In this document: in pieces, positions 17,130-36,410 of the stretch
How positions within the stretch are numbered: position 1 is the stretch's first letter
Layout: every line of letters begins with the position of its first letter
Assembly: GCF_026151205.1 (NCBI RefSeq)
Contig: NC_087074.1
Location: 3,100,001-3,164,000, forward strand
Length of the DNA: 64,000 bases
Direction of reading: 5' to 3'
Source of the DNA: Bolinopsis microptera
Taxonomy: Eukaryota > Ctenophora > Tentaculata > Lobata > Bolinopsidae
Notes under the pieces: model-generated
The model's input: the letters and a program-made list of their open reading frames with translations, nothing else
Told to the model about the DNA's origin: nothing
Database searches by the model: none
Program-made: the position numbers and the translations under genes

Positions 17130-19220
17130 TAATCAGGAACAATCATTCTTATATCTGTAATTCGTTCATTTCTGTTAAAACAATTTAATGATCAAAAAAA
17201 TTATTGACAGTAAAGTTACCCATCAAGGTATAATAATCATATTGGGGGGGGGGGGGGGGGGGGGATATTATAACAAATTATATTTTCGCCCTTTTTTTAC
17301 CCACCGCTACTCCATCTACTGAGACAGCTTTAGAGGGGTCCTCTTTGGTAAACCAACCCATTACTAAGGAGTATGGTTTGATTAGGAAGAGTGATATATA
17401 ATTAATATACATTTAATTTATCTAACTTGAAGATTAAATTAGCTCCTAAAAGATGCAAACAACTCGTCTTCGATGATCAATGATGAATATTGTAAAATAT
17501 GCAAGCAAACTTGCTGTATAGACGTATAGAGTATAGACAGTCTACCAAACATCTAGTCTGGAATGTGGTCTGAAATATTCGAATTTTCAAATTTTAGCGA
17601 CAGAATTTTCGAACGAGTTGGTACAGCATCAAGCATGTCATCAGGTGATCTGCAAAGCAACAAGTCTCAAATATGAAACGGGTAAAGGACACTTTGGCGG
17701 AAGTATGAAGACCCGACGTATCATGTAAACTGACTTCCCCCTTCCCCCAGCCCCTGTACTATAGTCATAGTTACAATATTGAATACTCGGCCAGCTCCAC
17801 TAGTCCCAGTCATCCTGCCCATCCAATCGCAAAGATTTATATGAGGGTAATTCTACTAGGTTTATACATTATCCATCTATTAATTATTATGTTAAACCCA
17901 ACAATCGTGTAAGGCAACGTGATAATTACTACGCTGTTGAATAGTCCTGAGAATGTCTAAAGGCTGCAAATTTGGCGAATTGTCCAGCTTATTTCGTCAG
18001 TTATGAATCTCTTAGTCCACCTATTCTCGGTCTTTGTGGCGAATACTTTTAATCTGAATTATTTTAATACAGAACTTTGACAGCATTCATCGTGGGAGTA
18101 AGACGACGAATAAAAGATGAAATACTTATAAAATAATAATTCATAGATTGTAAATGACACATATCACTGTATGGGTCTGTTCACATATTACGTAAGCCAG
18201 ATTTCTCCTTTTTAAAACCTCCTCCCTCTCCGTGAGCCACTTTACAGTTTACACATAGCTATCGTGTGGTACTTGAATAAGCTTTTTTAAACCCCCTTCT
18301 CTCTCCTACTCCCTCAGCTGGTTTACGCAATATGTGGGGGGGGGGGGGGGGACTTAGAGTCAACCATCTCCTGGTTAGAGGTAGTGATATAGGATATTTG
18401 AGAGGGGCAGAATATATGCGGAGGGGGAAGTTAACAAAAGGTCATTAAGTTATATAAAATTAGTTTTAGTGTAATCAAAATGCGGTTGAAAACTTCAGTT
18501 GCAATAAATGTTGCGTAATAATGCAGACATATGTTTAAGCGACGAAAAATGTCGGCAAACTTTTAGCCAAACCTGAACCCACTCGAAATTTCGTCGTTTG
18601 TCTATTTCAGTTCTATTCTTTGTCAGGCAGTGCAAAAATATGCCGCATATTTATGTTTAAGTACTGCACAATTTTTTTGAGAAAAATTTCAACAGTCCCA
18701 AAAATAGAATAAGCACAAATTATAATATCTTATTAAACTTAGTAGTAAACCCGCGATGGGGTGGCATGTGCCTCAATAAAAATATTGCAATCATTTATTA
18801 TTATATCAATGTATCATTAAATATTTCAAAAATATCAATAACGTATGGTTGATCCTTCACACTTGGTAAAATATATAAAAATAAAGTTAATCTACACTAA
18901 AGAATAAATAATCTATATTATATAAATCAAAAATATATATTAACTCCCCATCTTCATGTAGTCATTTATCAAAGCGGTAGAAATCCAAGTAATTTTAGTA
19001 CGCGGTGCGCAAGGAATTTCGTTTTTTTTTAAATGTGTAGGCAAGATAAGCCTAAGTGTGGCAGTGAAAATTGAAAAATAAGTTGCAGAATAAATTGCAG
19101 TGACTGACTGTCAAATGCATTATCGCAGTTCATTTATTTGACTGCACAGTGCACTAACGTTTAGGATTCTTACAGCGTTACTAACGTTTAGGATTCTTAC
19201 AGCTGTTATATTTTGCTAAT
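17130..19220. other. Gap between GPx 5' end and LINE-1 3' end
   Basis: AT-rich DNA with G runs at 17244-17264 (21 G) and 18336-18351 (16 G) and no gene I can support. The part closest to 19228 should contain the 3' UTR of the minus-strand LINE; two copies of an about 27-bp unit (CTAACGTTTAGGATTCTTACAG) lie at about 19150-19203. The exact 3' end of the LINE is not visible. Confidence 0.45.
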
Positions 19221-19227
19221 ATTTTGT

Positions 19228-22200
19228 TTAAAAGTTGTAAAGGACAAAGTTCTTGTCCGTCCACGAAAGGTTTTCTAGGTCAAGTTTTTGTTTGTCCAGT
19301 AAGTAACGTACAATGTTGTCCTTGTATGAATTAATAAACTTATCTTGTAACTTAGGTACGTTGAAGGGAAGGATTTTGTTTATTTCGTTTATCGTGTTGT
19401 TATATAATCGTGGTCCTACGTTAGAGATGCTATAATCGGTGATCCGTAAGCTGTTGAACTTAATTTCAAAATACTTTGGATTTCTCCTTTCCGTTTGTCT
19501 AAGCGGTGATTTTTCAAATATACTACAGATACTCGATGGTGCTACTCCCATATAAACCTTGTGCATCAAAGTTAGACAGCTTTTAGCAATGAGATTAGGA
19601 AGAGCCAAAATTCCTATTTTGTTGAAGATGGATTTTGTGTGAGATGGTAGTTTACGTTTTTCTTTGTCGTAAAAATAGTTATGATATTCTGAATCAGTGG
19701 CGCGAATAGCTTTCTTTTGAGCAGAGAATAAAGACTGAATGGAATTTAAAGATTTAGTACCCCAAACAGTAGCGCAGTAATACAGGTGAGATTGAATTAA
19801 ACTATTGTATAGCATTTTTTGAGCTTTATTCGGAATGGAACTTTTAAGTTTCATCATTACGCCTGCATTTCTGGATATTTTAGTCTTTACCTGTTTAATG
19901 TGCTGGCTCCAGCTAAGTTTTGAGTCAATAATGACACCTAAAAATCGTTCATGTTCACTTTTCACTAGTCGCTGTCCTTCTATACTAATATTTATATCCT
20001 CTGGTAATCTGTTAGTGAATATCATGTATTTAGTTTTTCCTACATTAAGTTTAAGACCGTTGTTTTTAACCCATGTCTGTACAGTATTTAATACTCTGTT
20101 TGCACGCATGTTCAGTTCAGTGTACGTGTCGGCAGAAACGATGATGTTTGCATCATCAGCGAAGAAAATATAATGGGCTATATCGCTTACATTTGCAAGG
20201 TCGTTTATGTAAATAATGAACAATATAGGACCAAGAATGGACCCTTGAGGAACTCCATGTTCCAATCCCATTTTTTCTGAACTGCAACCGTTGACGTGAA
20301 CATACTGTTTCCGGTTAGTTAGATAAGACTCAAACCAGGATAAGCTAAGGCCTCTTACACCATAGTGCTCCAGCTTATGTAGCAGTATCTCACTGTCTAC
20401 TAGGTCAAACGCCTTGGAGAAGTCAAGAAGCAGTAATGCTGACACTTGCTTCCTTTCTAGAGCTTTATGTATGTTAAACTGAGCTTCAAGCAACGCATGT
20501 TCACAACTGTGACCCGATCTAAAACCAAATTGCGACGCATATAGAATATTACGTGATTTTAGGTGCTTTACTAAACGTGCATGCATTATTTTTTCGAATA
20601 TCTTTGAGAAGCAGGACAAAAGTGAGATTGGTCTGTAGTTAGTAATTTCGCTGCGCGATCCTCCTTTATGGAGTGGGATAACCTTAGCAAGTTTGAGCTT
20701 TTCGGGGAATACTCCTTCGTGAAGGGAGTGTGAGATCAGGTGATTAACTACTGGAGACAGCACATTGCAAACCTTTTTAAGAGGCTGTATATTCATATCT
20801 GAAGTCGATTTGTTCTTAAGATCATGTATGATTTCAGCAATTTCGGAGGGCGAGGAGTCCTCCAGCTCCATATCAAAATCACATCGACTTGATTGGGGAA
20901 GAGAATGTCCTACTGATCCTGCACCGCGAACCAGATTGTTTTCGCTCTTTAGGTTCTCAGCTATATTAGTAAAATAATCATTAAAACTGTCAGCTATATC
21001 TTGTGAGTCGGTTATAACTCTATTTTTATAGTTAATCTTACTTATTTTTATTTTTTCTTTTGATTTCTTGTTTAATATTTGATTAATCATTTGCCATTGT
21101 AATTTGCTATTGCTCGCATGCTTTTTAAAATATGATGCGTAATACTTCTTTTTCGCAATATCTACTTGTTTTTCAACAAACTTTTTCATATGCTTATAAG
21201 TTTTTTCATTTTTTTCAGTAGGCTCTTTAACAAAGGATTTATATAGTTGGTTCTTTCGATTGCATGCACATTGAAGCCAATCTAATATCCACGGTTTAGA
21301 GTTTTTTCTGTGGTTTGATTTTTTCTTTTTAACTGGAAAACACTCATTATAGACTTCTTCATATTTAGTGTGAAAAGCTTCAAATTTTGTATTTGTCCCG
21401 TCAACGTTGTGTAAAAAATTCCAATCAATAGACGCTATTTTCTCCTCAAAACGAGCGATTTTCTCTTCATTTATTACTCGGTTTGATGATTCACAAGTTT
21501 CATTTTTCAATTTATTTCCTATTCTATTAGTGTCGAGAAGTATGCCGGTAAATGTGGCAAGGTGATCAGATAGCGATTCAGTTATAATGCCTGACTTTGT
21601 TATAGCATGGCATTGGTTTACGAAAATGTGATCAATAAGTGTAGCACTGTGACAAGTAATACGAGTTGGTCGTGATATCGTTGGTGCGAATCCATACTCT
21701 GCAAAAATATCAACATATTTAGTAGTATGGTCATTTACGCCGTATTCTAATAGATTAATATTGGTATCACCTAGAAATAATACGTTTTTGTTGCTATGTC
21801 GCGCCAAATCTTTTAGGGTGTTTTCCAATTTTTCTAAGTAACTGGGGACATTACCACTGGGAGACCGATACATATTGCATAGTATGACGTTTTTGTGGCC
21901 ATTTTGAGCTATCTCTATTAACTGAAATTCGCCAACGTTTGGATCATCTCTATAAGATAATTCAGATCGTGCAGTGACATCAGATAATTCACAGAGATTC
22001 TTGTTTACATAGGTTACTAGACCACCGCCCTTACCAGAGTCCCTTGCGGGAGCCTGAATAAAGGGGGGATGAAAGCCTTCTAACTCTAATTCTTTTCCTT
22101 GAAATGCCATACTTACAACCGTGCAGTTTGTTTCGTTGAAACACAGAACATCAAATTTTAGGTGCTGTTCAATTTCATCACGTATATTAGAGATTGCTTT

Positions 22201-22896
22201 GCTCAAAGATCGAATATTAAGAGATTGAACTTTAAATTCATAAGGCCTACTCGTGTTGATTTGCCGTGGTTCGTAGTATTTACAGCTATTTAGTACATCT
22301 GAGCAGTTATCCCATGGATTAAAGTTTAAGTCATTGTTTTCTTCAAAAGTATTACCTATATAATTAGAGTCATGGTTTCTATGGTATGGGTTAAATTTTG
22401 CGCTATTCTCGTAATTACCGTGTACGGTGTATAATTGTCTAGGTGATACCTCGAAACCAGGAAACAATTCACGTGTGCAGCTTTTGCATCCTAACTCGCC
22501 CGCTGAGCATTTATTGTGCGAATAAGCGTCGCATATCCAGCAAACCGCCATTTTTGATTTGTTTCCTAGCTTTTTACAAGTTTTGCAACTCACCCTGGCA
22601 AAACTTACTTTAGATTTAGCTTTTGTTTCTGTACTACAGGGTATGTAAGTGTTACACGAATTTTCATTAGTTAGAGTGGTAATATCAGTATTAGTAAACG
22701 GAAATATGTCAGTAGTACATGCCAAACAATACCAGTTTATGAAACTATTGTCTAATTTCATTCGATTTACGTCATTTGGTTCAAGATTAGCACATTTACG
22801 ATGAAAAATACCGTTACAAAGGCTGCATTTTAGCGGATCTTTACGTTCTAAACATTTTTTAGAACATAATCTACATCTACAAGACTCTTTGCACAT
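19228..22896 (-). CDS. LINE-1 ORF2: PHD-type zinc fingers, EEP endonuclease, reverse transcriptase
   Basis: 1222 residues, uninterrupted. It performs target-primed reverse transcription. Residues 1-60 hold a Cys/His PHD-like finger (CRLCSKKC, CSLCNGIFHRKC, WYCLAC). A second Cys-rich block at about 103-145 (CKTCKK, CWICDAYSHNKC, CKSC) follows. The endonuclease/exonuclease/phosphatase domain runs from about 220 to 445 (VQSLNIRS, FLGDTNINLL, LIDHIFVN, SDHLATF). The RT runs from about 735 (KVIPLHKGG, NYRPISLL, FGFRSGHSCEHAL, LLLDFSKAFDLVD, GVPQGSILGPILF), with the catalytic FADD at about 911, followed by the thumb and a long C-terminal region. The start is the first ATG of the open frame and sits just before the first zinc finger. 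It shares only moderate similarity with LINE-2 ORF2 in this window, so they are different families. Confidence 0.95.
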   Translation of the reverse strand: MCKESCRCRLCSKKCLERKDPLKCSLCNGIFHRKCANLEPNDVNRMKLDNSFINWYCLACTTDIFPFTNTDITTLTNENSCNTYIPCSTETKAKSKVSFARVSCKTCKKLGNKSKMAVCWICDAYSHNKCSAGELGCKSCTRELFPGFEVSPRQLYTVHGNYENSAKFNPYHRNHDSNYIGNTFEENNDLNFNPWDNCSDVLNSCKYYEPRQINTSRPYEFKVQSLNIRSLSKAISNIRDEIEQHLKFDVLCFNETNCTVVSMAFQGKELELEGFHPPFIQAPARDSGKGGGLVTYVNKNLCELSDVTARSELSYRDDPNVGEFQLIEIAQNGHKNVILCNMYRSPSGNVPSYLEKLENTLKDLARHSNKNVLFLGDTNINLLEYGVNDHTTKYVDIFAEYGFAPTISRPTRITCHSATLIDHIFVNQCHAITKSGIITESLSDHLATFTGILLDTNRIGNKLKNETCESSNRVINEEKIARFEEKIASIDWNFLHNVDGTNTKFEAFHTKYEEVYNECFPVKKKKSNHRKNSKPWILDWLQCACNRKNQLYKSFVKEPTEKNEKTYKHMKKFVEKQVDIAKKKYYASYFKKHASNSKLQWQMINQILNKKSKEKIKISKINYKNRVITDSQDIADSFNDYFTNIAENLKSENNLVRGAGSVGHSLPQSSRCDFDMELEDSSPSEIAEIIHDLKNKSTSDMNIQPLKKVCNVLSPVVNHLISHSLHEGVFPEKLKLAKVIPLHKGGSRSEITNYRPISLLSCFSKIFEKIMHARLVKHLKSRNILYASQFGFRSGHSCEHALLEAQFNIHKALERKQVSALLLLDFSKAFDLVDSEILLHKLEHYGVRGLSLSWFESYLTNRKQYVHVNGCSSEKMGLEHGVPQGSILGPILFIIYINDLANVSDIAHYIFFADDANIIVSADTYTELNMRANRVLNTVQTWVKNNGLKLNVGKTKYMIFTNRLPEDINISIEGQRLVKSEHERFLGVIIDSKLSWSQHIKQVKTKISRNAGVMMKLKSSIPNKAQKMLYNSLIQSHLYYCATVWGTKSLNSIQSLFSAQKKAIRATDSEYHNYFYDKEKRKLPSHTKSIFNKIGILALPNLIAKSCLTLMHKVYMGVAPSSICSIFEKSPLRQTERRNPKYFEIKFNSLRITDYSISNVGPRLYNNTINEINKILPFNVPKLQDKFINSYKDNIVRYLLDKQKLDLENLSWTDKNFVLYNF

Positions 22897-23471
22897 CTTT
22901 AATTTGCAAAGTATAACTATAGATTACTGGTTATATGATATACGATAGATTACTGATTATCAATATAAAATTAAAGATCTAAAGAGATTTATACAGGAAC
23001 TGTGGGTCAAGAAAACGGGTTAAGTTTTATGTTTGACTCCTAGTTCCAAAATCAGTCAAAATCTGTAAAGGTTAAATAATTGATTAAATAGTTAAAAAAT
23101 TTAAATATAAATACACTGAATTTACTCCAGTAATTCTACGCTTGTGTTGTGTTGAAATTAGTTCGGTCCGGATTTATGTTGTTGTTATCTGCAATTTTGC
23201 TTATAACCAGTTCAGATAAGATAAGAAAGAGTAAAAAACCGTTTAAAATTTACTGTGATACATTTACCATGGTCTATAAGCCATCGCAATAAAAAATAAT
23301 TTATGATTAGAAAAGAAAAAAGAAGATAAGGGACTTGCTGTTTTTGAAAAATTTGAACTTAGGTACTTTCTGTGAACGTTACTATACGTTTAGCTTTGAA
23401 AAATTAAATTTGTTCAAAATTGTGTTGTAAACGATTATGTATTCGCGACGAAAAATTTGATTTAAGAATTT

Positions 23472-25283
23472 CTACTGCATTGGCAAAAGAGATCGGAACT
23501 CATCCCTTAAAGGCCACACCTCTTCGATTACTGTCGGTCTTCGCCTGGCCAGTTCAATGATGCAGTCCAAGAGACGCGAAACGATCCCTTTCTTGGCTGC
23601 TAAGGTTAGATGAATACCGTTCCCATTTGGATCTAGTATAGTGCACCTTTTCCTCACCAGCTCAAAGCATATTTGATGCGAGTCAAACATCAATAGATTT
23701 TCAACCTTCGTGGTTAAAATAAATAAAGACTCGTTAAACCTACGAATTTCTGGATTTAGCCAGTGATAAGTGGTTAGTGTTATGGAGTTAAAGATGAATG
23801 TGGTGTTTGGGTATCTCTCACAATAAGTACGCAGATCATTCGCCACGACATCAAACAACGAGTAAGAACGGTGATTATACCTGGACAAATCGTTGATGCC
23901 TGCCGAAATCACCACGTAACTCATGTGAGGGAATAGGTGCTCAAACTTGTGAAGATCAGTGATTTTGTACATTGTCTCCTTGGTGCATGGCAAGTGAGTA
24001 GGAAACAAGCTGACGGGTGTGGTTGAATGAATTGAATCCGTCAATAGCAGAACACGTTCCGTTGGAATCGGAGTCGGGTCTGTTTCTGGTCTACTAGATT
24101 GGCGGATTGGTGGTATATGCTGTGGTGTGGTGGGAGCTGAGAGTCTGCGAAAAGTTAGTGATAGTCTCTCGCCTTGTGCTGTGGGATCTGCTTTAATACC
24201 ATGTTCCCAAAAGTCCTGGGAGGACCTTGACATGCAATAAGTCTGCCCGTGTTTGAGGTGTATGGATTGTGTCGTGAGAGGTCCTATTTTGCTGCGGAAG
24301 TCAATTGTTCGGGCAGCACCGAGACTGACTGTGATTATGTTACTGGGATTGACGATGCAAGCTTCGTTGTCACTGTGCATGGGAATTGAAGATTTACCGT
24401 TCTCATAACGAGTAAGAAGGCAAGTTATGTTGTCTGTGGTGAATGTTGGGTCTTCTGTGTGATGAGCGATTGAGTCTATGATTTCAAGGAGTGGGTGATT
24501 CGTGGGAATATCAAGTGGTTTGTGTACTGTTCTGCCATAACGATACTCTGTTCTACCAAAAAATGCTGTCTGTCGATGCCCTATCTTAGTAAAATGTACT
24601 CCGTGGCAAACTGTCTCCAGGTCTAAATGGTCAAAGTTTATATCACACGGTTCAACAGCACCTGGTATAGTTGGTAACGTCACCGTGTTGAGCTGTGCTG
24701 GTGGTGGCGGTGGGGTTGATGGAGGAGTTCTTCTAGAGTTGGCGGCGCTTTCATAAGCTAACATGTCCGTGATGCACTGTTTCGCTGCCGCTATCGACTC
24801 TGTTAGTTGTTCAATAATCCTCGCATGATGGCTTTCTGCTTCTTGAAGTTTCTCGGAAATGAGGGAGGTTACGGAAGTGAACTGATGCAAATTTTTAGAA
24901 ATATCATCTACATTGCTAGTTAGGTGTTGCTCTAGGTGTTGCTTTAAATGTTCATAGGCATGTGCCTTTCTATCCCTAGTTAGCATCCCTACTCCTATTG
25001 TATGATCTGTAAAACCACAGATTGTTGAATGGTATTCCGATTCATGTTTAAGTTGTTCTTCTGTCAGGGTTGAGAAGAGCTCTAAACTTGTTTTAGGAGA
25101 TAATAGTGCCGTCCTAAAAGTTTTATCGTACGTACCGTCTTGTTGTGGGGGTACCAGGCAGGTCTTTGAAGAGGTAGTGAGTGGGTCACTACCTGGTAGC
25201 CCCTTGTCATCTGATGAAGGATTCGTCTCGTGAGATGGGTGGGTGGTTGGCTGATCCAATAAGTTGAGCGCGGCGTCGGCCAT
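23472..25283 (-). CDS. LINE-1 ORF1: AlkB-like 2OG-Fe(II) dioxygenase fused to SGNH/GDSL esterase
   Basis: 603 residues from the ATG at 25283 (MADAALNLLDQ); the frame is open a further 32 codons upstream, overlapping the helicase gene. Residues about 60-190 are helical and coiled-coil-like, as in many LINE ORF1 proteins, then a Pro-rich linker (STPPPPPAQ). The AlkB double-stranded beta-helix follows: TRYENGKSSIPMHSDNEA with the HxD iron ligands at about 302-304, TVSLGAARTIDFR, distal iron ligand His in DFWEHGIK (about 360), and 2-oxoglutarate-binding Arg in RLSLTFRR (about 377). The esterase domain comes next: LLLTDSIH (nucleophile Ser, about 415), VISAGINDLSRY (about 463), and GNGIHLT with the catalytic His (about 553). 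AlkB enzymes remove alkyl groups from nucleic acids; some plant RNA viruses carry one to protect their RNA. By analogy this domain may demethylate the LINE RNA or cDNA. All catalytic residues are present. Confidence 0.9.
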   Translation of the reverse strand: MADAALNLLDQPTTHPSHETNPSSDDKGLPGSDPLTTSSKTCLVPPQQDGTYDKTFRTALLSPKTSLELFSTLTEEQLKHESEYHSTICGFTDHTIGVGMLTRDRKAHAYEHLKQHLEQHLTSNVDDISKNLHQFTSVTSLISEKLQEAESHHARIIEQLTESIAAAKQCITDMLAYESAANSRRTPPSTPPPPPAQLNTVTLPTIPGAVEPCDINFDHLDLETVCHGVHFTKIGHRQTAFFGRTEYRYGRTVHKPLDIPTNHPLLEIIDSIAHHTEDPTFTTDNITCLLTRYENGKSSIPMHSDNEACIVNPSNIITVSLGAARTIDFRSKIGPLTTQSIHLKHGQTYCMSRSSQDFWEHGIKADPTAQGERLSLTFRRLSAPTTPQHIPPIRQSSRPETDPTPIPTERVLLLTDSIHSTTPVSLFPTHLPCTKETMYKITDLHKFEHLFPHMSYVVISAGINDLSRYNHRSYSLFDVVANDLRTYCERYPNTTFIFNSITLTTYHWLNPEIRRFNESLFILTTKVENLLMFDSHQICFELVRKRCTILDPNGNGIHLTLAAKKGIVSRLLDCIIELARRRPTVIEEVWPLRDEFRSLLPMQ

Positions 25284-25311
25284 GGTAAATTTTCTTATCA
25301 GCAAACGAATT

Positions 25312-27927
25312 TCATGCGTAATGTAAAAGACAAATATGATAATGAAAATAATTGGCCATAGCTTTACTGGAGGAGGCAAAATCCTTAAAATCAGAAGTCA
25401 AAAACCTAGTTGTGATGAATCTTGCGTTAGATTCCTTGTAATCTGAAAATAATTCGCTATGATCCCCTTTTTGATAATAAGGTGTCTTTGAACCGTATCT
25501 CATGGAAACTGATAAGAAATGCAAGTATTTTTGGAATACGTTTTGGACGTCCTCCATTATTTGTTTGATCTTGCGTTTAGTGAATTCCGTTACCGTTCCC
25601 GAAACTAAATGTACATTATGTGCCTTTGCAGTAATTGTCAAATCATTTATAAAACTCTGAACGTCCCTCATAATAATCATAATTGAGCAGTAAACCCTTG
25701 CTCTGGACACAGTGATGTACATCCTAGCCAACAATTGATCATACCACTCTGCCAACATCTCCTCTATTGACTCTTCTGAAGTAAATTTTTTATTGAGAAC
25801 ATTGGGGAAACTCCATTCCAATATTCCTATTACTGCTGGCCATTCAGATGAGAAACTTCCCTCGTATGAGATAACATCGATGCGGTTTTTCCTTCTAGAG
25901 TCGTTTGTTGAGTGCATTGAGGCAAGAAAATCACTAGTTATGTCCTTGCAAATTTGTTCCCAGTGAGTGCAAGTGATTGAGTCTGGTCTCCGTTGCTTAT
26001 TCCTTACCAGGTGTTCTACGTAACTTGTACATAATGGATCTTGATGGTTAAAACCTTTCTCAGATGCGAATAATCTGTCATCCGCCACTATGATTGCTAA
26101 ATCTGTATTTTTCAGTTTTTTGAGCTCCTTTGAAACTGCTTCTTTGACGAACTTTTCGATTGCTAAACCATTAGGTGTGAGGCTATGCAGGAAATGCATG
26201 TTTCCTTTCGGACCATGAATGAAATGGCCTGGTTGCTGCTCTATGAACATAGTATTGGCAGGCTTGGATCGTATTTTTTTTATTCCAGAAAGCATATGTG
26301 TTATCTCGTAGGAATTTCTCAGATTGTCAGAAAGTTTTCTGATGGAATCGGGATTCAATCTGCTAAAAAATTCTTTGACATTTTTGTGTTTTTTTGTATA
26401 ATCGTACAGAAATCCTTGCTGTAAAATATCATTCACTATCCAAAATGTTCTTCTAGATCGTGACTTCGAATCAAATTCTGCCAACACCTGCTCAAATACA
26501 CGGTCAGTCTTGTTGCCAACACCTGTGGTGAAACCGTGGAAGTCATCAATGAAAATATGATAGTCAGATTGGAGCAGAATTGTTAAACTGGAGCATCTGT
26601 CTTCCTCATTAACCTCTACAACTGGATATGTTTTCATGCCTTCTAGATTCAAATCCTTCAATCGGTTCTGGAAGTATTTTATCAAAACTTGTTCTTTTGA
26701 TTTCAATGACGTATACCTCACATTGCCCCATAAAGTTGTTTTTAGGCCCGATTGTGTTACGACTTTCGAGTAGGTTTCAGCCGTAGCCTTGTTGAGGACG
26801 ATAATGGCAACGTTTTCGTTTGTAAACTTTACCATTTCGATGACTTTAGCCATAACAAGAATTGTTTTCCCACTTCCAGCTGGGCCTCTTATACAGAGCT
26901 TATTCTGTTTGCTCTCAAAGATTGCAAGCTGACTCACAGTCAAACACTTTATCTTAAGATAATCTTGAAAGATCCGTGGCGCATTCTTTACCAAAGGTGA
27001 TCTATTTCCCGATTTTAGAGAGCTGGTTATTTCCGAAGTTCTCAGTAGATGGTCAACTCGTTGGATGCTTTTACCCAGATCACAGCCATTTGTAACAGAA
27101 TACTTGTTATTTTTATTGTTCATACACCATAAACCAAGCAAAATACACGCTGTATTCATTCCCACTTTTGTTTCGAATTTAATCGTACATAAGTGACTCC
27201 TCAGAGCCCAGTTTTCAATGTCATTTTTGAAGAGAGTCGAATACTTTTCTGAATGTGTAAGAGAATTGTAACTATCAAGATTTTCTTCGGCATGTTTTCT
27301 GGTGATGCTGGTGAAAACAATTAATTGACGGATAGCTTCATATTCGATAGTCTTACATTTTTTATCAACACCGATCACAAGTTTGCGTGATTTTTCCTGC
27401 TGCTTCTGTGCCTTCCTAAAGCTTCTTATAAACTTTTCTTCACTATCACAGGAGGTCGATTTAACTTCAATCAAAGTTACAAATTTGTCATTGATCACCA
27501 GAAAGTCTATTTCTCCTTCCTCGTCCATGTCTTTTTTAGTACAATCATGTTCATCAAACAAATTATACTGCTGATGAGTAAACCTAAACCCATAAATGAC
27601 AATCATATACTCTCTGATGTCCTCTAACAATCTATAAACTTTAACTTCAGCTTCATATTCTCTCTGTTGTTTCTCGATTCGCTGCACCCAGTTAGGTTCA
27701 TTCTCAATATTATCTGGATACTTGTCTATGAATTTACAGAGTGGCGCCGGAGGAAACATAATGGGACGTTGGGTTTTCTCATTGCAATAAAAGGAGAATA
27801 TTTCTACTCCAACTTTCATGATCTTTCTGATAAATTCTTCATTTGGAGAGGTGATTAATTTTTCATCATTAACTTGGATGCTTTTACAGAGCTCACAACT
27901 CTGTGAGCTCTGTCCAGACCGTTCCAT
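25312..27927 (-). CDS. NERD/PD-(D/E)xK nuclease - SF1 helicase protein, copy 1 (intact)
   Basis: 871 residues in one uninterrupted frame. A nuclease module of NERD/restriction-endonuclease type occupies about 85-165: helical YEAEVKVYRLLED, then EGEIDFLVINDKFVTLIEVK with metal-binding D141, E154 and K156. The SF1 (UvrD/DUF2075/Schlafen-like) motor follows: Walker A GPAGSGKT (348-355), Walker B HIFIDDFHG (about 457-465), FWIVND (motif III-like), LSDNLRNSYEI (motif IV), ISYEGSFSSEWPAVIGI (motif V), YITVSRARVYCSI (motif VI). Nuclease-helicase fusions of this kind are best known from prokaryotic anti-phage systems; the role in an animal is unknown. The N-terminus looks shortened: SCELCKSIQ matches the end of the first nuclease module of copy 2, so copy 1 has probably lost that module. 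The last 100 residues have no counterpart in copy 2. The stop lies 28 nt upstream of the LINE-1 ORF1 start, so the extreme C-terminus may be read-through into the LINE 5' end. Confidence 0.85.
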   Translation of the reverse strand: MERSGQSSQSCELCKSIQVNDEKLITSPNEEFIRKIMKVGVEIFSFYCNEKTQRPIMFPPAPLCKFIDKYPDNIENEPNWVQRIEKQQREYEAEVKVYRLLEDIREYMIVIYGFRFTHQQYNLFDEHDCTKKDMDEEGEIDFLVINDKFVTLIEVKSTSCDSEEKFIRSFRKAQKQQEKSRKLVIGVDKKCKTIEYEAIRQLIVFTSITRKHAEENLDSYNSLTHSEKYSTLFKNDIENWALRSHLCTIKFETKVGMNTACILLGLWCMNNKNNKYSVTNGCDLGKSIQRVDHLLRTSEITSSLKSGNRSPLVKNAPRIFQDYLKIKCLTVSQLAIFESKQNKLCIRGPAGSGKTILVMAKVIEMVKFTNENVAIIVLNKATAETYSKVVTQSGLKTTLWGNVRYTSLKSKEQVLIKYFQNRLKDLNLEGMKTYPVVEVNEEDRCSSLTILLQSDYHIFIDDFHGFTTGVGNKTDRVFEQVLAEFDSKSRSRRTFWIVNDILQQGFLYDYTKKHKNVKEFFSRLNPDSIRKLSDNLRNSYEITHMLSGIKKIRSKPANTMFIEQQPGHFIHGPKGNMHFLHSLTPNGLAIEKFVKEAVSKELKKLKNTDLAIIVADDRLFASEKGFNHQDPLCTSYVEHLVRNKQRRPDSITCTHWEQICKDITSDFLASMHSTNDSRRKNRIDVISYEGSFSSEWPAVIGILEWSFPNVLNKKFTSEESIEEMLAEWYDQLLARMYITVSRARVYCSIMIIMRDVQSFINDLTITAKAHNVHLVSGTVTEFTKRKIKQIMEDVQNVFQKYLHFLSVSMRYGSKTPYYQKGDHSELFSDYKESNARFITTRFLTSDFKDFASSSKAMANYFHYHICLLHYA

Positions 27928-28295
27928 CCTCCAGGCCCCGCCCTGTTGCGGTAGCCAAGATCAAGATGCGTAGTCAGAGTGGCTCATAGGCTGAAATGAG
28001 TTTCGTTTCATTGAAATGTCTAAAAGTGAAATTATTTTACCAGAATATTAAACATAATATGATAGTAATTAGTGAACTTATTTCTACGGAACATAATGAT
28101 ATGAATCTATACTCACAAGTCACATCGAGGTGTCAGAACATCTTCAGTTTAGGAAAACTGATGAACAGGAATTTTTTGGAAAAAAAGGAGGGGGTGAGGG
28201 GTCATTCGGGAAAATTTCGAAAAGTACCGTGGTACTTTTTTGTTATTCCATTCGTGAAGGAGGTGGGTGGGTGGTTATTTTCAGAAATTTCGAAA

Positions 28296-29430
28296 TAATA
28301 ATAATAATAATTCTATACTGTTACATAATTTAAAAATTATGGCCCCTTATTGTGGGCAGAGTATGTTTCTTTATTTAAGTGTCCTGATTTAAAAATCATC
28401 TGAGTGACTGCATTGAAATTATTTAAGGAGAGTAACAATTAGAACATACTTATTATATTAATATCAACATTAGAACAAAATACAGTCACCTAATTCTCGT
28501 CTCCTACAGTTGAGTATAGAGGAACCATCTTTGGCGTGTATTAGGGACTTAGACCATTACAAATACCCTGCTGTAAGTTTGCAAGGTATGTGGACTAAGT
28601 GGGTCGAGAGTACTCGACTTGGAACTGGGTGTTGAGAATTCTCAACTAAACTAGAAGATAATGATGTCCAGAAGATGAGGCAGTAGATGGAGTAGTAAAG
28701 GAGTAGTAGAGGCTGAAGGGGGAGTGATGTCATAAGGAGATGTAGGACATGAAGGGGGATGGAGGTGAAGGAGTACTATAAGTATAAGTATCAATTCTAT
28801 GATAGTTTACCGATGGCGATCTGTGCTAAAGATCGGAAGGCAGTGATGCTGCCATCACTACCATCTCTTAAGATAGACCAGCATGGTTGGTCATTAGTGT
28901 AGTGCTCTTGAATGGTTTCTCTGTAGGAACAGCGGTACAGTGGACAAGAGAAGATTCGATGGTAATTGTTGTCCAACATCTGACAATTCGGACACTGAGG
29001 GTCGCATTTGTTGGCAACCCTTGCCTTGAATGCTGTGAAGGTGATGTCATGGCCATGCAAGAGAGACATTACTTTAGTGTCTGTGCTCCTGCTTGAATAG
29101 CGAGGAAACAACTTTTTGCTCCTCTCATCGATGTTATCCAGTATCTCACCCGGATTTATTCTAGGGTTCAGTAGGAGATGTTTATTCCAGGTGAAGTCCA
29201 TAAAGCGGGTTATTTCGTCTTTTGAATAGCTGACAACACCGTTGTGGACACTAGTCAGAAGGTCTATTCTGCTTCTGTTCAGCTCGTTGGACCCCCTTGT
29301 CCACGTTAGGAACTTACGTATCTCATCAATATGGTGCTGATATCGATGGGCCTTTGCCTCCTCTAGCTGTAAGATGAGTCCTTGCATAAATGGGTCACTT
29401 GTAAGTGCTTTTATTATGAATTTTATAGTG
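28296..29430 (-). mobile_element. LINE-3 copy a: 5'-truncated retrotransposon with target-site duplication
   Basis: The 3' part of a non-LTR retrotransposon on the minus strand, flanked by the direct repeat ATTTCGAAA (28287-28295 and 29431-29439) as target duplication. It ends in an (AAT)n tail at the low-coordinate side. It is the same family as the plus-strand copy at about 51430-53960, with which it shares both coding and 3' UTR sequence. Confidence 0.9.
28797..29387 (-). pseudogene. LINE-3 copy a: C-terminal end of ORF2 (truncated)
   Basis: 196 codons, open, corresponding to the region behind the RT in jockey-like LINEs. It contains a C-terminal zinc knuckle, CDPQCPNCQMLDNNYHRIFSC (Cys-x3-Cys-x2-Cys ... 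His-x4-Cys spacing), typical of that group. The RT itself is missing because the copy is 5'-truncated, so it cannot move on its own. The ATG is just the first in the fragment. Confidence 0.8.
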
Positions 29431-29488
29431 ATTTCGAAAAGTCAGCATATGTTCCATCAAAAAAGTACCTGCACCCCCCCCCCCCCCC

Positions 29489-30577
29489 GGCAGGACTACC
29501 AATAATTTTTTACAGAATGAAGTTTAGAAAAATGGATTAAAAGTTATCCGAAAATAAAATCCTTGCCAGACTTTTGAAAGGTTTCAAGAATCATCTAGAA
29601 GATAAGTGTTAGTAGTTAAATTTTAATTGGTCTCTAAGAGATAGTTGGTCAGTGATATAAAAATAATCACAATTTAATAATAAATCAAATCATAAATACT
29701 ATCAACACAATGGGGAAATAGGAAATACAAATAATGGCACTCTGAAAGACTCTGAAAAAGGAACTAACATTAAACCCGTAACGTAAACAATTTTTAAGCA
29801 TCCAGAGGCCGCTATTTACCTCGAGGAGGTGGGTATTTTTCCATACAGCTGTCTGCTGTTTAGTAAATCCACAATTTAACGACGTTGGCAGCTGAGCGGC
29901 GAATACGTAGTGATATTATCGAAGCATTCAAAATTATCAGCGGTTTAGCCTAGTGTGGATCGGGTATATTTGGAATGAGCAGATCCAATCTAATATCAAC
30001 CAGTAAATACAATTTAGTAAGAGTACTGAATAGTATTAATTTAAGATCATGGATCACCAAACTTTGCATTGTAGGTTAACCTACCAAGACGCGCGCCGAA
30101 TAGGACTCGTCGGATCGCGACGGTCTTGTCTAATATTTGAAAGAAATATTTTACGAGTATCGTCCGTTAAATTAAATTGGAACAAACTTTTTCCAGACGT
30201 CAAGAGCTCTGTGACAATTTCCGTATCACGTTGTAACCCCCATTGTCGTTACACTAATTGTTATTTCACTAAGCTTCACTTATTATTATATAGATCGTAC
30301 GGCCACGATATAGCTGCGCACCCGTGCGCGGCAGGTCTACAACGTATGTAAAGTAAAGTAAAGTAAAGTAAAGTAAAAAATTATGACATAACATCATCAC
30401 TAATGTCTACAAAGTATCATCATCATCATATGTGGTAAAACAAATTTTGTATACACGTTGTATACAAAAAAGAGTTTACAACGTGTATCAACTATTATAA
30501 AGCTTATAGTATAGTGTTTCAAATCAAGTATTAGGAAGCGAAGCTCGAAGAATTAAAGAATCATATCATGTTCATGT
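29489..30577. repeat. R1 repeat, copy 1 (upstream of helicase copy 1)
   Basis: About 1.1 kb that matches 47742-48922 in several blocks with indels: GGCAGGACTACCAATAATTT at the start, a long block with CATCCAGAGG and GGAGGTGGGTA, GGTTTAGCCTAGTGTGGATC, then GTGGTAAAACAAATTTTGTA and CATATCATGTTCATGTT at the end. It is preceded by a 15-bp C run (29474-29488). It contains short GC-rich words (GCGCACCCGTGCGCGGCAGG) that recur in copy 2. No ORF of substance (the 100-codon ORF at 30049 lies across it and is not conserved). Nature unknown: a dispersed repeat or part of a segmental duplication with the helicase gene. Confidence 0.75.
30350..30377. repeat. AAAGT microsatellite
   Basis: Five to six AAAGT units in tandem inside R1 copy 1, absent from the corresponding place in copy 2. 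Confidence 0.9.
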
Positions 30578-31176: not shown

Positions 31177-34100
31177 TTACTGTAACTTAAAATTGTTTGG
31201 AGTCCAAGTCTCTTTTAAGTCAACAGCCTGTGATTGTATTAATAGTGCTTTCGTTCTCAATTTTATCAAGTTAATGGAAGTTTCTAGACAATTGCTTGAA
31301 GTTAAAATTTTTTTATGAACAGTGTTCCAAAGCTTGGCTGCATTAAACAAAAAGGTATTTGATTTATTTAGAAGAATAACTGTTAGACTCGTTGCACGGT
31401 TTGAAATGTTGATAGCCTCATAAAGGGAGTATGGGCAGTGGTACTTGATAATCTTAGAGAATTCTAAAATACAGTGATATTTGTACAAGTTTTGAGCCGT
31501 AAGAATTTTTAACCTATTAAAAATGGGTTTCGTATGCTCCTTTTCAAAATGTTTATGGCCTAGTATTTGCATGCCATATGGTCTAGTTCTTGCACATGTT
31601 GATTGTTTATCTAGATATGAGTCGAGATCACCAAAAAGGATTCTTATACAGTGCTTCTGTGTGATAAAAAGACTATCATTTGACCGTTCTTTGAGGACAA
31701 CTCCCCAAACACTTATACCATAACTTAGATGTGATTCAAATAGAGCATTATATATTTTTAAATATAGTTCAGCAGGTATCGAGTGCCGAATTCTACAGAT
31801 TGCACCAGTCATGGACCTCAGTTTTTTACGGATGTAGTGCATGTGGGCAGACCAGTTTAGCTTACTATCTATAACAACACCTAAGAATTTGGTATCCTTG
31901 ACTTTAGTGATAACCTTACCATTGATGAATATTGATCTAGATTCATCTAGCAGGGTAGCAAATGGTCTAGTCCGTGCACAAGTGTCATCATATTCAGAGG
32001 CAGGTTTAAAATGGATGTAGCAGCATTTTGACATGTTGATATGAAGTAGATTACATTTCATATAAATCGAGACATGTTTAAGCACTAAGTTGGCTTTTTT
32101 GTATGTTGCTTCTCTAGACGGTCCTGATATGAAGATATTAGTGTCATCAGCATAAAGTACAAATTTCACTTCACTGTCTGAAAAACAGTTTACTATATCG
32201 TTCATATACAGTAGGAAGAGTAATGGCCCTAGAATTGACCCTTGAGGAACCCCGAATTCCACATCCATTGTTTCTGATGGTACATCGTTATACATCACAT
32301 ACTGCTTTCTGTTAGTCAAGTAGCTTTTTAGTAAAGTTAGTGCTGTGCCCCTAATACCATAGGAATTTAACTTGCTTAGAAGAATATTGTGATCAAGGGT
32401 GTCAAAGGCTTTGCTCAAGTCAATGAATATGCCTAGGACATGTTTATTGCTAGCCAGGGACTTTGTAACAGAGTCTATAGATTTGTGTAGAGCATGGGCG
32501 GTAGAATGGCCTTTTCTAAATCCAAACTGCGAGTCTGTTAGTACACCTTTAGATGTAAAGAAATTATAGAGCCGTTTGTAAATGACCTTCTCGAAAATTT
32601 TCCCAAATAAAGGTAATATTGATACAGGCCGATAATTTTCAATACATTCCTTATTGTCTTTCTTGTAAATAGGAATAACTTTACCAGTTTTAAAAATACT
32701 TGGGAATGTTCCACTTTGTATACATATGTTGTAAAGCCTAGCCAAGGTACCAGCGATGAGCTTTGCCGATTTTTTTACAACGATTATAGGTATGTCACTT
32801 GCCTTGCCATTTTGAAAATCTCTGATGACCTCGATAATCTCATCTTCATTAGTTTCTTCTAGGTATATGGAGTCAGACACTGAATTAGACATGAATTGAG
32901 CAAATGATTCTACTGGATCCAGAGAAATACTATTGTTCGACAATACATTTCTATTGAGATTGCTTGCAAGAGATGTAAAGTATTCACAAAATTTGTTAGC
33001 AATTATTCGTCTGCAAGTAATTCTCTGGCCATCTATGACAAAATCGTCCTTACATCTAGACATATTCTTACCACGGAGTTCATTGATAACTTCCCAGGTC
33101 TTTTTTGAGTTCATGCTGTACTTCTCGAATTTTCTAGTATAGCACATAGCTTTTGCCATATTTATTGAGTTTTTGAGAAACTTGTCGAATTCCTTGTAGC
33201 AGATGTGCTTGTTTTGATCCCCGTCAGGTAGTTTTAATGTACAAGTCTTCTTCCATTCGAAATACAACCTAGCTTTCTTGTCTATGGAATTAATTAGCCC
33301 CTGGGTAATCCAAGGGTTAGTTATGCTGTTGCGTTTAGTGGTTCTAGGAGTAAGAAGTTTGCAAGACAAATCTATCTTTTCTTGAAATAACTGCATGAAA
33401 GAGTCAAATGTGTCACAGCTGTGCTGGAACCTATCTATATCGTTTTCTATTTCAAGACAGAGCTTCTCTAGGTTAGCATTACTATAGTCGTAGTGTATGG
33501 TAATTTTGTCTGGTGAATCAGGTTTAGGCACAGAGTTAGGGGGAAGCTCAACAAGAGTGAATACAGGGTGATGGTGGGAGATATTATCAGATATCACACC
33601 AGAAATAAGGGATTGGTCTACTACATTGGTGTGGATATTGTCAATACAAGTCCTGGAACAGCCAGGTATTTGGTGTGTTGGTACTGATATGGTTGGTGTG
33701 AAGCCGTTGTTGAATATTATTTCTTGGAATTTGTCCTCTGATGGAGATGGGTCTTTCAAAATGTTGACATTGAAATCACCAAGAATGTATACTTTTTTGC
33801 CATTCAATTTTGAGAGAATACGTTCATATGCTTCGTTGAACAGTTCAAGTGATGCGTTCGGGGGACGGTAGATAACCCCTACAACAGTTGGGTCTTGCAA
33901 GCTAGTGATAGATACAAATAGTGATTCTATGTGTTCATTACAGAGAGATAAGCCAGTAATCTTGTTAAAGTTAAGGGAATCGTGCAGGTAAAGACACACT
34001 CCTGACCCTTTACTCTTGAACTGGTTTTTCTTTTGACAAAAGTAACGTGATTGATAACAGGAGGAGTATCCGTTAAGCTGATACAGGGCTCCATTTTCGG

Positions 34101-34662
34101 GATTGGTGTTTGTTTCTGCAAGGCCGATAACAGAGAATTTGTGGTCGATACAAGACAGCTCAACTGCAAAGTTGTCAAAGTTGGATGCATTTCCATCAAT
34201 GTTAAGAAATAATTTGGACAAATATTTAACTGAATTTTTAGGTAGAATGGTGGCATTCAACTCTTTTATGGAGAATGTTTTGCAATTTTCAAGAACCTTT
34301 GAGCTATTGTAGATAGATTCTATATAATTGACTGGCTCATCATCAATGAGGCCATTGTTTGCAAAGTGGGGAGCTTGGTAGAAAGGGTTGTACCGAACAA
34401 TATCATTAGCATCAGTGCATATTTTGCAGTATGTTCCATCTCGAAATTTGACTATGTTATCATCAGTTTTGCATTTTTTGTGCATTATTTTGTCACACAT
34501 CTGACAAATTATGAATGGATGTCCAGCACGCACAGGTCTATTGCAGCAGCACAGCAAATTTCGCATATTAGTTTGACTATCATGACTGAAGTACAGATCT
34601 ACGGGGACGTGGGGAAAATCTATTTTGGGCCTTGGCAACAGCACTGAACAACCTCCCATCAA
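31177..34662 (-). CDS. LINE-2 ORF2: zinc finger, EEP endonuclease, reverse transcriptase
   Basis: 1161 uninterrupted residues. An N-terminal Cys/His finger (LLCCCNRPV, IICQMCDKIMHKKC, YCKIC) lies at about 37-82. The endonuclease runs from about 150 to 365 (LFLNIDGNASN, VIGLAETNTN, VYILGDFNVNIL, SHHHPVFTL). The RT runs from about 660 (KVIPIYKKDN, NYRPVSILPLFGKIFEKVI, FGFRKGHSTAHAL, FIDLSKAFDTLDH, GVPQGSILGPLLF), with the catalytic YADD at about 835. A long C-terminal region carries CARTR motifs, one seemingly repeated (CARTRPFATLL, CARTRPYGMQI). The same CARTR word occurs in the LINE fragment at 36411-37031, a relative. The enzyme looks intact although its ORF1 partner is broken. Confidence 0.95.
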   Translation of the reverse strand: MMGGCSVLLPRPKIDFPHVPVDLYFSHDSQTNMRNLLCCCNRPVRAGHPFIICQMCDKIMHKKCKTDDNIVKFRDGTYCKICTDANDIVRYNPFYQAPHFANNGLIDDEPVNYIESIYNSSKVLENCKTFSIKELNATILPKNSVKYLSKLFLNIDGNASNFDNFAVELSCIDHKFSVIGLAETNTNPENGALYQLNGYSSCYQSRYFCQKKNQFKSKGSGVCLYLHDSLNFNKITGLSLCNEHIESLFVSITSLQDPTVVGVIYRPPNASLELFNEAYERILSKLNGKKVYILGDFNVNILKDPSPSEDKFQEIIFNNGFTPTISVPTHQIPGCSRTCIDNIHTNVVDQSLISGVISDNISHHHPVFTLVELPPNSVPKPDSPDKITIHYDYSNANLEKLCLEIENDIDRFQHSCDTFDSFMQLFQEKIDLSCKLLTPRTTKRNSITNPWITQGLINSIDKKARLYFEWKKTCTLKLPDGDQNKHICYKEFDKFLKNSINMAKAMCYTRKFEKYSMNSKKTWEVINELRGKNMSRCKDDFVIDGQRITCRRIIANKFCEYFTSLASNLNRNVLSNNSISLDPVESFAQFMSNSVSDSIYLEETNEDEIIEVIRDFQNGKASDIPIIVVKKSAKLIAGTLARLYNICIQSGTFPSIFKTGKVIPIYKKDNKECIENYRPVSILPLFGKIFEKVIYKRLYNFFTSKGVLTDSQFGFRKGHSTAHALHKSIDSVTKSLASNKHVLGIFIDLSKAFDTLDHNILLSKLNSYGIRGTALTLLKSYLTNRKQYVMYNDVPSETMDVEFGVPQGSILGPLLFLLYMNDIVNCFSDSEVKFVLYADDTNIFISGPSREATYKKANLVLKHVSIYMKCNLLHINMSKCCYIHFKPASEYDDTCARTRPFATLLDESRSIFINGKVITKVKDTKFLGVVIDSKLNWSAHMHYIRKKLRSMTGAICRIRHSIPAELYLKIYNALFESHLSYGISVWGVVLKERSNDSLFITQKHCIRILFGDLDSYLDKQSTCARTRPYGMQILGHKHFEKEHTKPIFNRLKILTAQNLYKYHCILEFSKIIKYHCPYSLYEAINISNRATSLTVILLNKSNTFLFNAAKLWNTVHKKILTSSNCLETSINLIKLRTKALLIQSQAVDLKETWTPNNFKLQ

Positions 34663-35232
34663 CGGGGCTACCTAGGATCTTATGGGCAATTGCTCGGGAG
34701 AGTTTAAAGATACCGTTTGATCCAAGGTGGATTGGGTCATCCGGCTTCTTGTATCTACAGAACTGCTTGTTCAGTAGACCCTCTTCATCGACAAAACTAT
34801 CAAAATCTAAAGTTCCTATCCTAGTGTTAGTATTACAGTAACCAAATAATAAACTATTAAATTCCATGGCTCTGTCATTCAGCCAGGAGGACCTAGTTGG
34901 TAGGATGGGTGAGACTATAACTTTAGAATATGGACACAAATCACAAATATTCTTGAGCTTCTTCGTCAGCTCATCAGCCCAATGTTTAACATCACCCCCT
35001 CCCCTTTTAATATTATTTACACCACAGTGTACTACAACGTTCTTGTATCCTACACAAATAGCAGGGTCTAACTGATCTATTGTGAAACATTCAACTCTTT
35101 TTCCAGGCAGTTTGTGACCAAATGTCCCTTTCCCTGCACCAAACCGGAGGAACCGGGTGTTTGAGTCACCAATAATCAATGTTGCATTGGTGCTGTTGCT
35201 AACATAACGGAACGTTATACTGAATCTTATGT
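34580..35232 (-). pseudogene. LINE-2 ORF1: SGNH/GDSL esterase domain, cut by mariner insertion
   Basis: About 217 codons of ORF1 remain up to the mariner insertion at 35233; the predicted start codon in the open frame lies in mariner sequence and is artificial. SGNH blocks are all present: LIIGDSNTRFL (nucleophile Ser), VVHCGVNNIKRG (block III, GxNN), and DDPIHLGSNG (catalytic Asp and His). It lacks any AlkB domain in the part that survives. The C-terminus overlaps the start of ORF2 by 83 bp in another frame. Confidence 0.85.
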
Positions 35233-35741
35233 TACAGGGTGGCCCATAAGTGACTACCCACACGCAACCTCTTAATAACTCACGTAATTCGTCTCCAAAT
35301 TGCACCAAAATTTCAGAGATTATAGATATGGGTCAAACTTAGATTTCCTGAAAGTTTCGTAAGCCACGCCCAATTACAGTGGGCGTGGCGTGACACTCCC
35401 TCTTTTTCACTATTGTCTTCATAAAATGATAACGCTTTAAGCTAAGAACTCAAAATGTTTTGCACACATTTGGCTTGATAATTGAAAACTTTTCCAAAAG
35501 TTTCAAGTTCATTGGTTTAAATATGGCTGAGTTATGACCATTTTAAAATCCATCGGATATGTGATCCGAGCACTCAGTCAGTGATATTTGCACTCAATTA
35601 GTGATCTCGTCACCCAATTTGATCAAGAGTAAGGCGTTAGCGTGTATTAATGAGGTTCATTAGGCTTTGATTGGATACCGATGATGACTTTGCTAGAAAG
35701 GAAAACACAAATTTTTAGGATAAATCAATAAATGAAATCAA

Positions 35742-36410
35742 CTAATAAAAATTCCCACACAAAAACAATTCAATAATTTCAATTTTAAGATGTTCAAATT
35801 GTCGTCCCCCAGCTGCAATCACCTTGAGGCACCGCTTCTTCACACTCCAACAAGCGTTCGTAGCAAACGCTGGGTCCATATTATGGATGATGTCGATCAG
35901 GTGGTGCTTTAGCTGCGTGATGTTTGCAATAGGATATCTCTTATAGAGTTGGTCCTTCACCTACCCCCACAGGAAGAAGTCACACGGTGTAAGGTCAGGA
36001 CTTCTAGCCGGCCAGTGTGTTTCAAGATGTTGTCCGATGGTTCTGTGGGCGAACTTGTTAGCGAGGAAATTCTGAACTGGTCGAACGATGTGAGGTCGAG
36101 CTCCATCCTGCATGAACCACCAGTCCGTGGTGAGGTAGGGGTTGTTGAAGGAGAACTGCGACAGATCAGGATAAAACTTGTTCTCCAGCAGATCCATATA
36201 GCGAACTCCGTTGACTGTCACTCTACTTCCGTTTTCTTTGTAAAAGTAAGGTCCTAGGATTCCACGAGAACTGATGGCGCACCAGATCGTGACCTTTTCA
36301 GGAAAAGCTGTTCTCTCCACCACTTCATCCGGTCTAGTAGAGCCCCAGTGAATTGCATTCTGGGAGTTGACATATCCGTTTATATGGCAGTGAGCCTCGT
36401 CGCTGTACCG
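35742..36410 (-). pseudogene. mariner transposase, C-terminal half (DD41D-like)
   Basis: Catalytic half of a mariner-like transposase. First Asp in RYSDEAHCH, second in FMQDGARPH, third in SPDLTPCDFFLWG. Counting to the Asp of PCD gives 41 residues between the second and third Asp, matching the DD41D (rosa-like) group rather than DD34D. Directly after FFLWG there is an in-frame TAG (35958-35960) before VKDQLYKRYPI, so even this half is damaged. The beginning is cut by the LINE insertion at about 36411. Confidence 0.9.

Follow-up and report, generated by a model that had tools for sequence, protein, structure and literature searches.

The window analysed here, a stretch of 64,000 nucleotides from the ctenophore Bolinopsis microptera (NC_087074.1, positions 3,100,001 to 3,164,000), carries what is almost certainly a recently mobile non-long terminal repeat (non-LTR) retrotransposon, a long interspersed nuclear element (LINE), whose first open reading frame (ORF1) fuses a long helix, an AlkB-type dioxygenase domain and an SGNH esterase domain. 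We assign the element to the LINEs because its ORF2 encodes an APE-type endonuclease and a reverse transcriptase, because dispersed copies with differing flanks are found, because it ends in a tandem-repeat tail and because LTRs are absent. That a LINE here carries its own AlkB-type enzyme had been proposed in a sequence-only reading of the window, and the proposal is strongly supported by the pairing of ORF1 with ORF2 at other loci, by invariant iron ligands and by purifying selection.

The element and its copies in the genome

All features of the element lie on the minus strand. Judged from the extent of homology to other copies in the same genome and from a comparison of copy ends, the LINE covers about 6.6 kb (~18740..25344); its 5' end is placed at ~25337-25344 (ends of 9 copies compared, the window copy counted, flanks differing) and its 3' end, a short (TAC)n tail, at ~18740 (7 copies, compared in the same way). 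ORF1 (23472..25283, 603 amino acids) begins with an ATG at 25283, the plus-strand reading of the same interval being full of stops, and the ORF list, Pfam and an AlphaFold2 (AF2) model give it a disordered N-terminus, a long helix, the AlkB domain, a linker and the SGNH domain. The AlkB/SGNH frame first noticed at 23472-25283 is thus real, and the ORF list places it on the minus strand. A spacer of 575 bp (22897..23471) separates ORF1 from ORF2 (19228..22896, 1222 amino acids), which combines N-terminal, PHD-like Cys/His clusters with an APE-type endonuclease and a reverse transcriptase and lies downstream on the same strand. The endonuclease and reverse transcriptase of the PHD/endonuclease/reverse transcriptase order read earlier are borne out by Pfam (Exo_endo_phos, 1.8e-11; RVT_1, 2.7e-37), but the PHD is a weak match (17.1 bits against a cut-off of 24), accompanied by many N-terminal Cys and His residues that are invariant or nearly invariant among 28 aligned ORF2s. 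The 3' untranslated region (18740..19227) contains a 27-bp unit twice, at 19153-19208, plus the (TAC)n tail.

Searches of the element's own genome covered 264.65 Mb in 232 contigs, eleven of the contigs C1-C13 measuring 15.2-26.2 Mb each. ORF1 gave at least 73 matches (73 of 849 candidates scored); seven, including the window copy, are full-length, stop-free and 99-100% identical, and the remainder are pieces of the same subfamily at 93-99% identity or others at 33-46%. Copies of the window subfamily share homology from ~25344 to ~18740 only, the flanking DNA differing from copy to copy, and the (TAC)n tail varies at their 3' ends; one copy (L018) is apparently 5'-truncated within ORF1. Direct repeats in 18500-30000 reach at most 24 nt, with no LTRs seen there, and a check of 6 copies for target-site duplications found no flank match longer than 7 bp. 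The likeness to the CR1/L2-type LINE clades is one of domain order and tail only.

Twenty loci on ten scaffolds (L009-L028) were picked from the ORF1 matches, and the tally of pairing covers ORF1-bearing loci. In all 20, an ORF2 match lies just downstream of ORF1 on the same strand, as had been read for the window copy; the distance from the ORF1 stop to the ORF2 start is ~480-840 bp, and both frames are full length and uninterrupted in 11. A search for further ORF1-ORF2 pairs had been suggested as a check, and further copies without AlkB, with ORF1 a host gene near an unrelated LINE, as an outcome that would count against the reading. At the loci picked by ORF1 no such outcome was seen, and pairing at 20/20 loci rules out the host gene. 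The broader alternative, that a host AlkB gene came by chance to lie upstream of an unrelated LINE or that the assembly is at fault, retains almost no probability: besides the pairing, the frames that read as host ALKBH2/3 genes sit elsewhere and branch apart in the AlkB tree, and relatives of ORF1 are present in other public collections.

Domains and conservation of the ORF1 protein

The AF2 model of ORF1 (mean local confidence, pLDDT, 80.6; overall template-modelling score, pTM, 0.58) shows a long single helix at residues 105-181 (24741..24971), which by its likeness to the ORF1 protein of ZfL2-1 is a possible coiled coil for multimerisation (PMC3905857). The AlkB domain spans residues 205-383 (24135..24671). 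All of its iron and 2-oxoglutarate ligands, as originally read, are present (H303, D305 and H361 for iron; R373 and R379 for 2-oxoglutarate), and the profile search that had been recommended matched 2OG-FeII_Oxy_2 (PF13532) at residues 230-379 (E 6.7e-19, 69.3 bits, cut-off 31.2). The SGNH domain (residues 408-578, 23550..24062) has the fold and the Ser, Gly, Asn and His (S417, G462, N464, H558) that place ORF1 among the type IV (esterase) ORF1 proteins. In the canonical SGNH motif an Asp stands three residues before the catalytic His; in the window ORF1 that position is N555. The esterase, first described as complete, therefore has its four name-giving residues but lacks the canonical Asp.

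A first protein search found 56 relatives of ORF1. Many are about 600 amino acids long, and ENA-labelled sources account for most of them; every one is listed with PF13532, and 4 have PF13472 as well. Residues were counted over the window ORF1 and all 56 relatives (57 rows), 43 of which make up alignment A1; among these 43, at E 0.01, PF13532 was found in 43 and PF13472 in 17. H303, D305, H361 and R379 are kept in 57/57 ORF1s, R373 in 56/57 (P0044 has Leu) and E307 in 55/57. On the esterase side, S417, G462 and N464 are kept in 56/56 and H558 in 55/55 of the rows with a letter, and the residue at the Asp position (55 rows with a letter) is Asn in 46, His in 4, Asp in 3, Gln in 1 and Arg in 1. 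Since the usual Asp is mostly replaced by Asn, the hydrolase activity may, to judge by these residues, be altered. The counts also bear on whether the AlkB domain serves chiefly as a nucleic-acid-binding platform, catalysis being secondary or unneeded. Its position between helix and esterase would suit such a role, as would the lack of a structured RNA-binding domain in the esterase ORF1 proteins of Repbase, as far as the available text of PMC3905857 describes them; binding alone, however, does not require that the iron and 2-oxoglutarate ligands be kept, as four of the five are in every row and the fifth in all but one, and we regard a chiefly binding role as improbable.

A second search, with other subfamilies as its starting point, gave a list of 43 proteins. 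Of these, 42 had not appeared in the first list and 40 have PF13532; the one named relative among them comes from Mnemiopsis leidyi ('hypothetical protein ACHWQZ_G002226', 597 amino acids, P0201). Mnemiopsis also supplies the only named animal relative of ORF2 (P0174) among 120 listed of 212. Compared with these 120, 3 of 36 ORF1 relatives have a contig equal in length to that of an ORF2 relative, against 0.38 expected on shifted lengths, at least 3 pairs arising in 1 of 300 shifts; the 36 come from 38 ORF1 relatives with contigs of at least 3000 (P0206 and P0217 were left out, neither matching the ORF2 list), and one of the three pairs (P0186/P0122) joins differently labelled sources. The equal-sized contigs are suggestive only of ORF1-ORF2 linkage in other genomes. 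No contextual relatives were confirmed in IMG/VR (searched with ORF1 and ORF2) or in GTDB genomes (ORF1). Matches in a plasmid collection (16-27% of the query; 20 of 29 records listed) and in a phage collection (24-29%; 4/4 records) were confined to the AlkB part. One protein filed as AlkB of a Planctomycetes bacterium metagenome-assembled genome (P0015) is 44% identical to the LINE ORF1 over 64%, and is probably eukaryotic contamination.

Selection on the two domains is shown in the sole group of copies with enough changes. Between L019 and L020, ORF1 differs by 21 synonymous and 17 nonsynonymous changes, a ratio of nonsynonymous to synonymous rates (dN/dS) of 0.235, close to the 0.246 of ORF2; by part, the ratio is 0.34 for the N-terminal region, 0.17 for AlkB and 0.16 for SGNH. 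The L019/L022 and L020/L022 pairs give 0.10 and 0.15 for AlkB, 0.18 and 0.29 for SGNH, and 0.34 and 0.93 for the N-terminal region, and L019/L021 has zero synonymous changes and one nonsynonymous change in each of AlkB and SGNH. Ratios for the L023 group are 0.41 and 0.51 in two pairs of ORF1s, and another pair has 3 nonsynonymous and 0 synonymous differences. Between subfamilies synonymous sites are saturated and dN/dS is unusable. The AlkB and SGNH domains are under purifying selection in the L019 group.

Affiliation and possible role of the AlkB domain

A phmmer search of the PDB with ORF1 returned human ALKBH3 at 4.1e-11 and ALKBH2 at 9.9e-8, and a profile of the 43 aligned ORF1s returned ALKBH3 at 1.3e-26, ALKBH2 at 7.9e-23 and Escherichia coli AlkB at 2.1e-6, its C-terminal part matching a GDSL lipase at 0.0026. 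With HxD...H and R...R ligands on an AlkB fold, the domain belongs with the ALKBH2/3-type dioxygenases; it is 22-28% identical to human ALKBH3/ALKBH2 over the domain and nearer to them than to ALKBH5 in both sequence and fold. As between the two, the sequence score favours ALKBH3 and the fold cannot separate them. The human proteins are stand-alone cellular repair enzymes, unlike the window domain, which is fused into a LINE ORF1, but they share its fold and its iron and 2-oxoglutarate ligands, and the positions of ALKBH3 Tyr143 and Glu195 align with the window ORF1, in which Y249 and E307 are by analogy likely base-pocket residues. By title, the structures of these nearest relatives are of ALKBH3 with 3mC single-stranded DNA (8jnr) and of ABH2 with 1meA DNA (3bty).

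It seems plausible, and we would give it an even chance, that by analogy with these enzymes the ORF1 AlkB domain repairs N1-methyladenosine (m1A) and 3-methylcytidine (m3C) on the RNA or cDNA of the element. The ORF1 protein would multimerise on the element's RNA, and the AlkB domain would grip single-stranded nucleic acid of the element and oxidatively remove methyl groups from the Watson-Crick face (m1A, m3C) of the RNA template, the growing cDNA or both. Both m1A and m3C stop reverse transcriptase, and loss of these blocking methyls would free reverse transcription to proceed. The SGNH domain would have its role on membranes or lipids, in line with what has been proposed for ZfL2-1, and AlkB would at the same time give ORF1 a structured domain for binding nucleic acid, which the esterase ORF1 proteins in Repbase lacked.

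Several observations weigh against this repair role or temper the evidence behind it. The substrate of an AlkB domain is unreadable from fold or motifs alone. A neighbouring LINE in the window has an SGNH-only ORF1, without AlkB. The arrangement of the domains in the AF2 model is uncertain at the pTM obtained, and Asn occupies the usual SGNH Asp position in most ORF1s. The 56 relatives were gathered by similarity to the window ORF1, which favours well-conserved proteins, so that the invariance of residues is somewhat favoured by the way in which the relatives were found. Few changes lie behind the L019/L020 values (5 synonymous and 3 nonsynonymous in AlkB; 7 and 4 in SGNH), and pairs of window-subfamily ORF1s differ by 0-7 nonsynonymous changes with ratios from 0 to 0.94, counts too small to weigh.

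The sequence-only reading had offered both repair of the element's nucleic acid and evasion of m6A/m1A-based control. Repair of the m1A/m3C type fits better, and evasion based on N6-methyladenosine (m6A) less well, because the domain matches ALKBH2 and ALKBH3 better than ALKBH5 and because mammalian L1 is facilitated by METTL3 and suppressed by ALKBH5 (PMC7873242, from part of its text). In the evasion reading, AlkB would erase host-placed m6A from element RNA, or N6-methyladenine (6mA) from element DNA, and so prevent silencing. Erasure of this kind has parallels in an orchid Ty3/Gypsy element, where an ALKBH5-like ORF has demethylase activity in vitro (as excerpted from PMC9289625), and in the mouse, where young L1s gain N6-mA and, along with it, repressive marks when Alkbh1 is knocked out (PMC4982230, in part), but for the window element we hold it to be unlikely. 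An ALKBH2-like repair of the target DNA, or of a double-stranded or gapped integration intermediate, at the insertion site is quite doubtful, given that the sequence score favours ALKBH3 over ALKBH2 and that ORF1 proteins are presumed, in the portion of PMC3905857 used here, to package RNA.

AlkB domains in other mobile elements of the genome

AlkB-family matches in the genome number at least 151 (150 of 587 candidates scored). Six further loci, L029-L034, were chosen for their other frame sizes. In L030, L031 and L032 an AlkB-bearing ORF1 is followed on the same strand by reverse transcriptase frames, broken in L030. In L034 an endonuclease fragment and then a reverse transcriptase frame follow, the latter of which may belong to another element. 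L033 (G000:C9:7324800-7332300, 3991-6303, minus) has AlkB first, then a helical region, then an apparent SGNH part, with an endonuclease frame downstream and a reverse transcriptase match on the opposite strand only. PF13472 scores below its curated cut-off of 32.9 in L030 (25 bits), L031 (21.5) and L034 (30.9); the SGNH part of L032 and L033 is apparent from motifs, without a Pfam match; and L032 and L034 have a weak PHD-like match ahead of AlkB. L029 (G000:C10:16870500-16880499, 3922-9999) is a Helitron in which a single open frame holds SGNH (24.1 bits, under the cut-off), AlkB, DUF6570 and Helitron_like_N. A genome search with Helitron_like_N gave 41 matches, and among the AlkB matches listed 6 share contig, strand and a long frame (2225 to 3388 amino acids) with a Helitron match.

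The joint occurrence of AlkB and SGNH in these LINE loci and in a Helitron, the SGNH matches falling below the curated cut-off, could be read as a sign that the substrate of AlkB is something other than nucleic acid, such as a protein or a lipid, and that AlkB perhaps works in sequence with the esterase. The closest relatives of AlkB, however, demethylate nucleic acids, and Y249 and E307, which probably belong to the base pocket, are retained, so that this seems highly improbable. Returning to the repair of nucleic acid by AlkB, its presence in Helitrons also suggests that what is protected may be single-stranded intermediates in general, beyond RNA.

In an AlkB tree of 25 rows (10 of 22 inner forks open; P0030 left out although its ligands are present in the 57-row comparison), 19 transposon rows including the Helitron form one group (98/96), apart from L033, two bacterial AlkBs and three frames of the same genome that, from their sequences, read as host ALKBH2/3 genes; the branches of L029, L033 and L034 are long and their positions uncertain. 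The AlkB of L033 groups with the host-like and bacterial AlkBs, and may represent a separate, second capture. It appears that LINE lineages have swapped ORF1s and, with them, AlkB, since the histories of reverse transcriptase and ORF1 differ. In a 13-row ORF2 tree, the sister of L032 is the SGNH-only neighbour of the element in the window (100/100). By identity, L023 (G000:C12:12443280-12453279) is closer to L026 than to L019 in ORF2 (62.9% vs 40.8% identity) but closer to L019 in ORF1 (44.6% vs 38.2%). Reticulate evolution of ORF1, with which this agrees, has been described for LINEs in the part of PMC4120745 drawn on here.

Neighbouring features in the window

A NERD/helicase-like ORF (25312..27927, minus; Pfam NERD, 1.3e-5) extends ~26-33 bp into the LINE. 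It was rejected as a part of the element; other copies carry different sequence at that place, and for this reason we take it to be the landing place of the window copy, its 3' end having been hit by the LINE. A fragment about 14 kb away (39650-40216, minus) has an identical stretch of the NERD/helicase protein. The second LINE (31177-35308, minus) comprises an endonuclease/reverse transcriptase ORF2 (31177-34662), 30% identical to that of the first, and the SGNH-only ORF1 (34580-35308). Frames at 35961-36422 and 37618-38391 (minus), without a Pfam match, resemble pieces of what we take, from a motif, to be a mariner-type transposase, and a long repeat tract rich in GAG/GGACTGAGGA, with strong GC skew, occupies 40531-43033.

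Relation to known systems and significance

LINEs with esterase (type IV) ORF1 proteins, known from CR1, L2 and other clades, share with the window element a helical, possibly coiled-coil N-terminal region, a C-terminal SGNH domain and an endonuclease/reverse transcriptase ORF2 (passages of PMC3905857 and PMC4120745); in Danio rerio ZfL2-1, the ORF1 protein dimerises through a coiled coil, and its esterase is active and binds lipids (PMC3905857). The window ORF1 differs in having an AlkB dioxygenase between helix and esterase. The ORF1 domains named in PMC4120745, in the text available, are RRM, PHD, CCHC, coiled coil, CTD, esterase and zf/lz; a count of 'AlkB', 'dioxygenase' and 'demethylase' in its main text gives 0 for each. 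The nearest known precedent is the Phalaenopsis Ty3/Gypsy retrotransposon, which also encodes an AlkB-family protein, the one whose in vitro activity was cited above, but which is a plant LTR element with an additional, ALKBH5-like ORF recently acquired in one lineage (PMC9289625, in part). In the window element, by contrast, an ALKBH2/3-like domain is fused into a LINE ORF1 and occurs in several diverged subfamilies; its APE/reverse transcriptase ORF2 and lack of long direct repeats set it outside Gypsy. In plant RNA viruses, AlkB domains sit within the viral polyprotein. These viruses, too, are genetic parasites that pass through RNA and carry AlkB (mentioned in PMC2714080). No report of AlkB in a LINE or Helitron was found among the titles, abstract openings and passages obtained by searching an open-licence library, where several result lists comprised the best 10-20 hits, and the text of a krill genome paper has neither AlkB nor Helitron as a whole word. 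Esterase ORF1 LINEs and an AlkB-bearing Gypsy are thus already known, and AlkB in a LINE ORF1 or in Helitrons has no precedent that we found; priority is not proven, since Repbase and most of the subscription literature lie outside the search.

The function of esterase-type ORF1 proteins in LINEs, and their way of holding RNA, are not settled, and here a putative demethylase sits at that place with its active site kept. The finding makes it testable whether RNA or cDNA methylation limits retrotransposition in animals and is countered by erasers that the elements themselves encode, and that Helitrons in this genome have AlkB domains too suggests that RNA and DNA elements face a shared pressure. 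Possibly, AlkB and SGNH form an exchangeable protection module of several LINE lineages and Helitrons, kept because the host, or its chemistry, methylates single-stranded intermediates of transposition on their Watson-Crick face, a proposal that we put forward tentatively and expect rather to fail than to hold. If true, it would mean that methylation of the m1A/m3C type constitutes an unrecognised host defence, or a strong natural barrier, to which transposons have raised a counter-defence.
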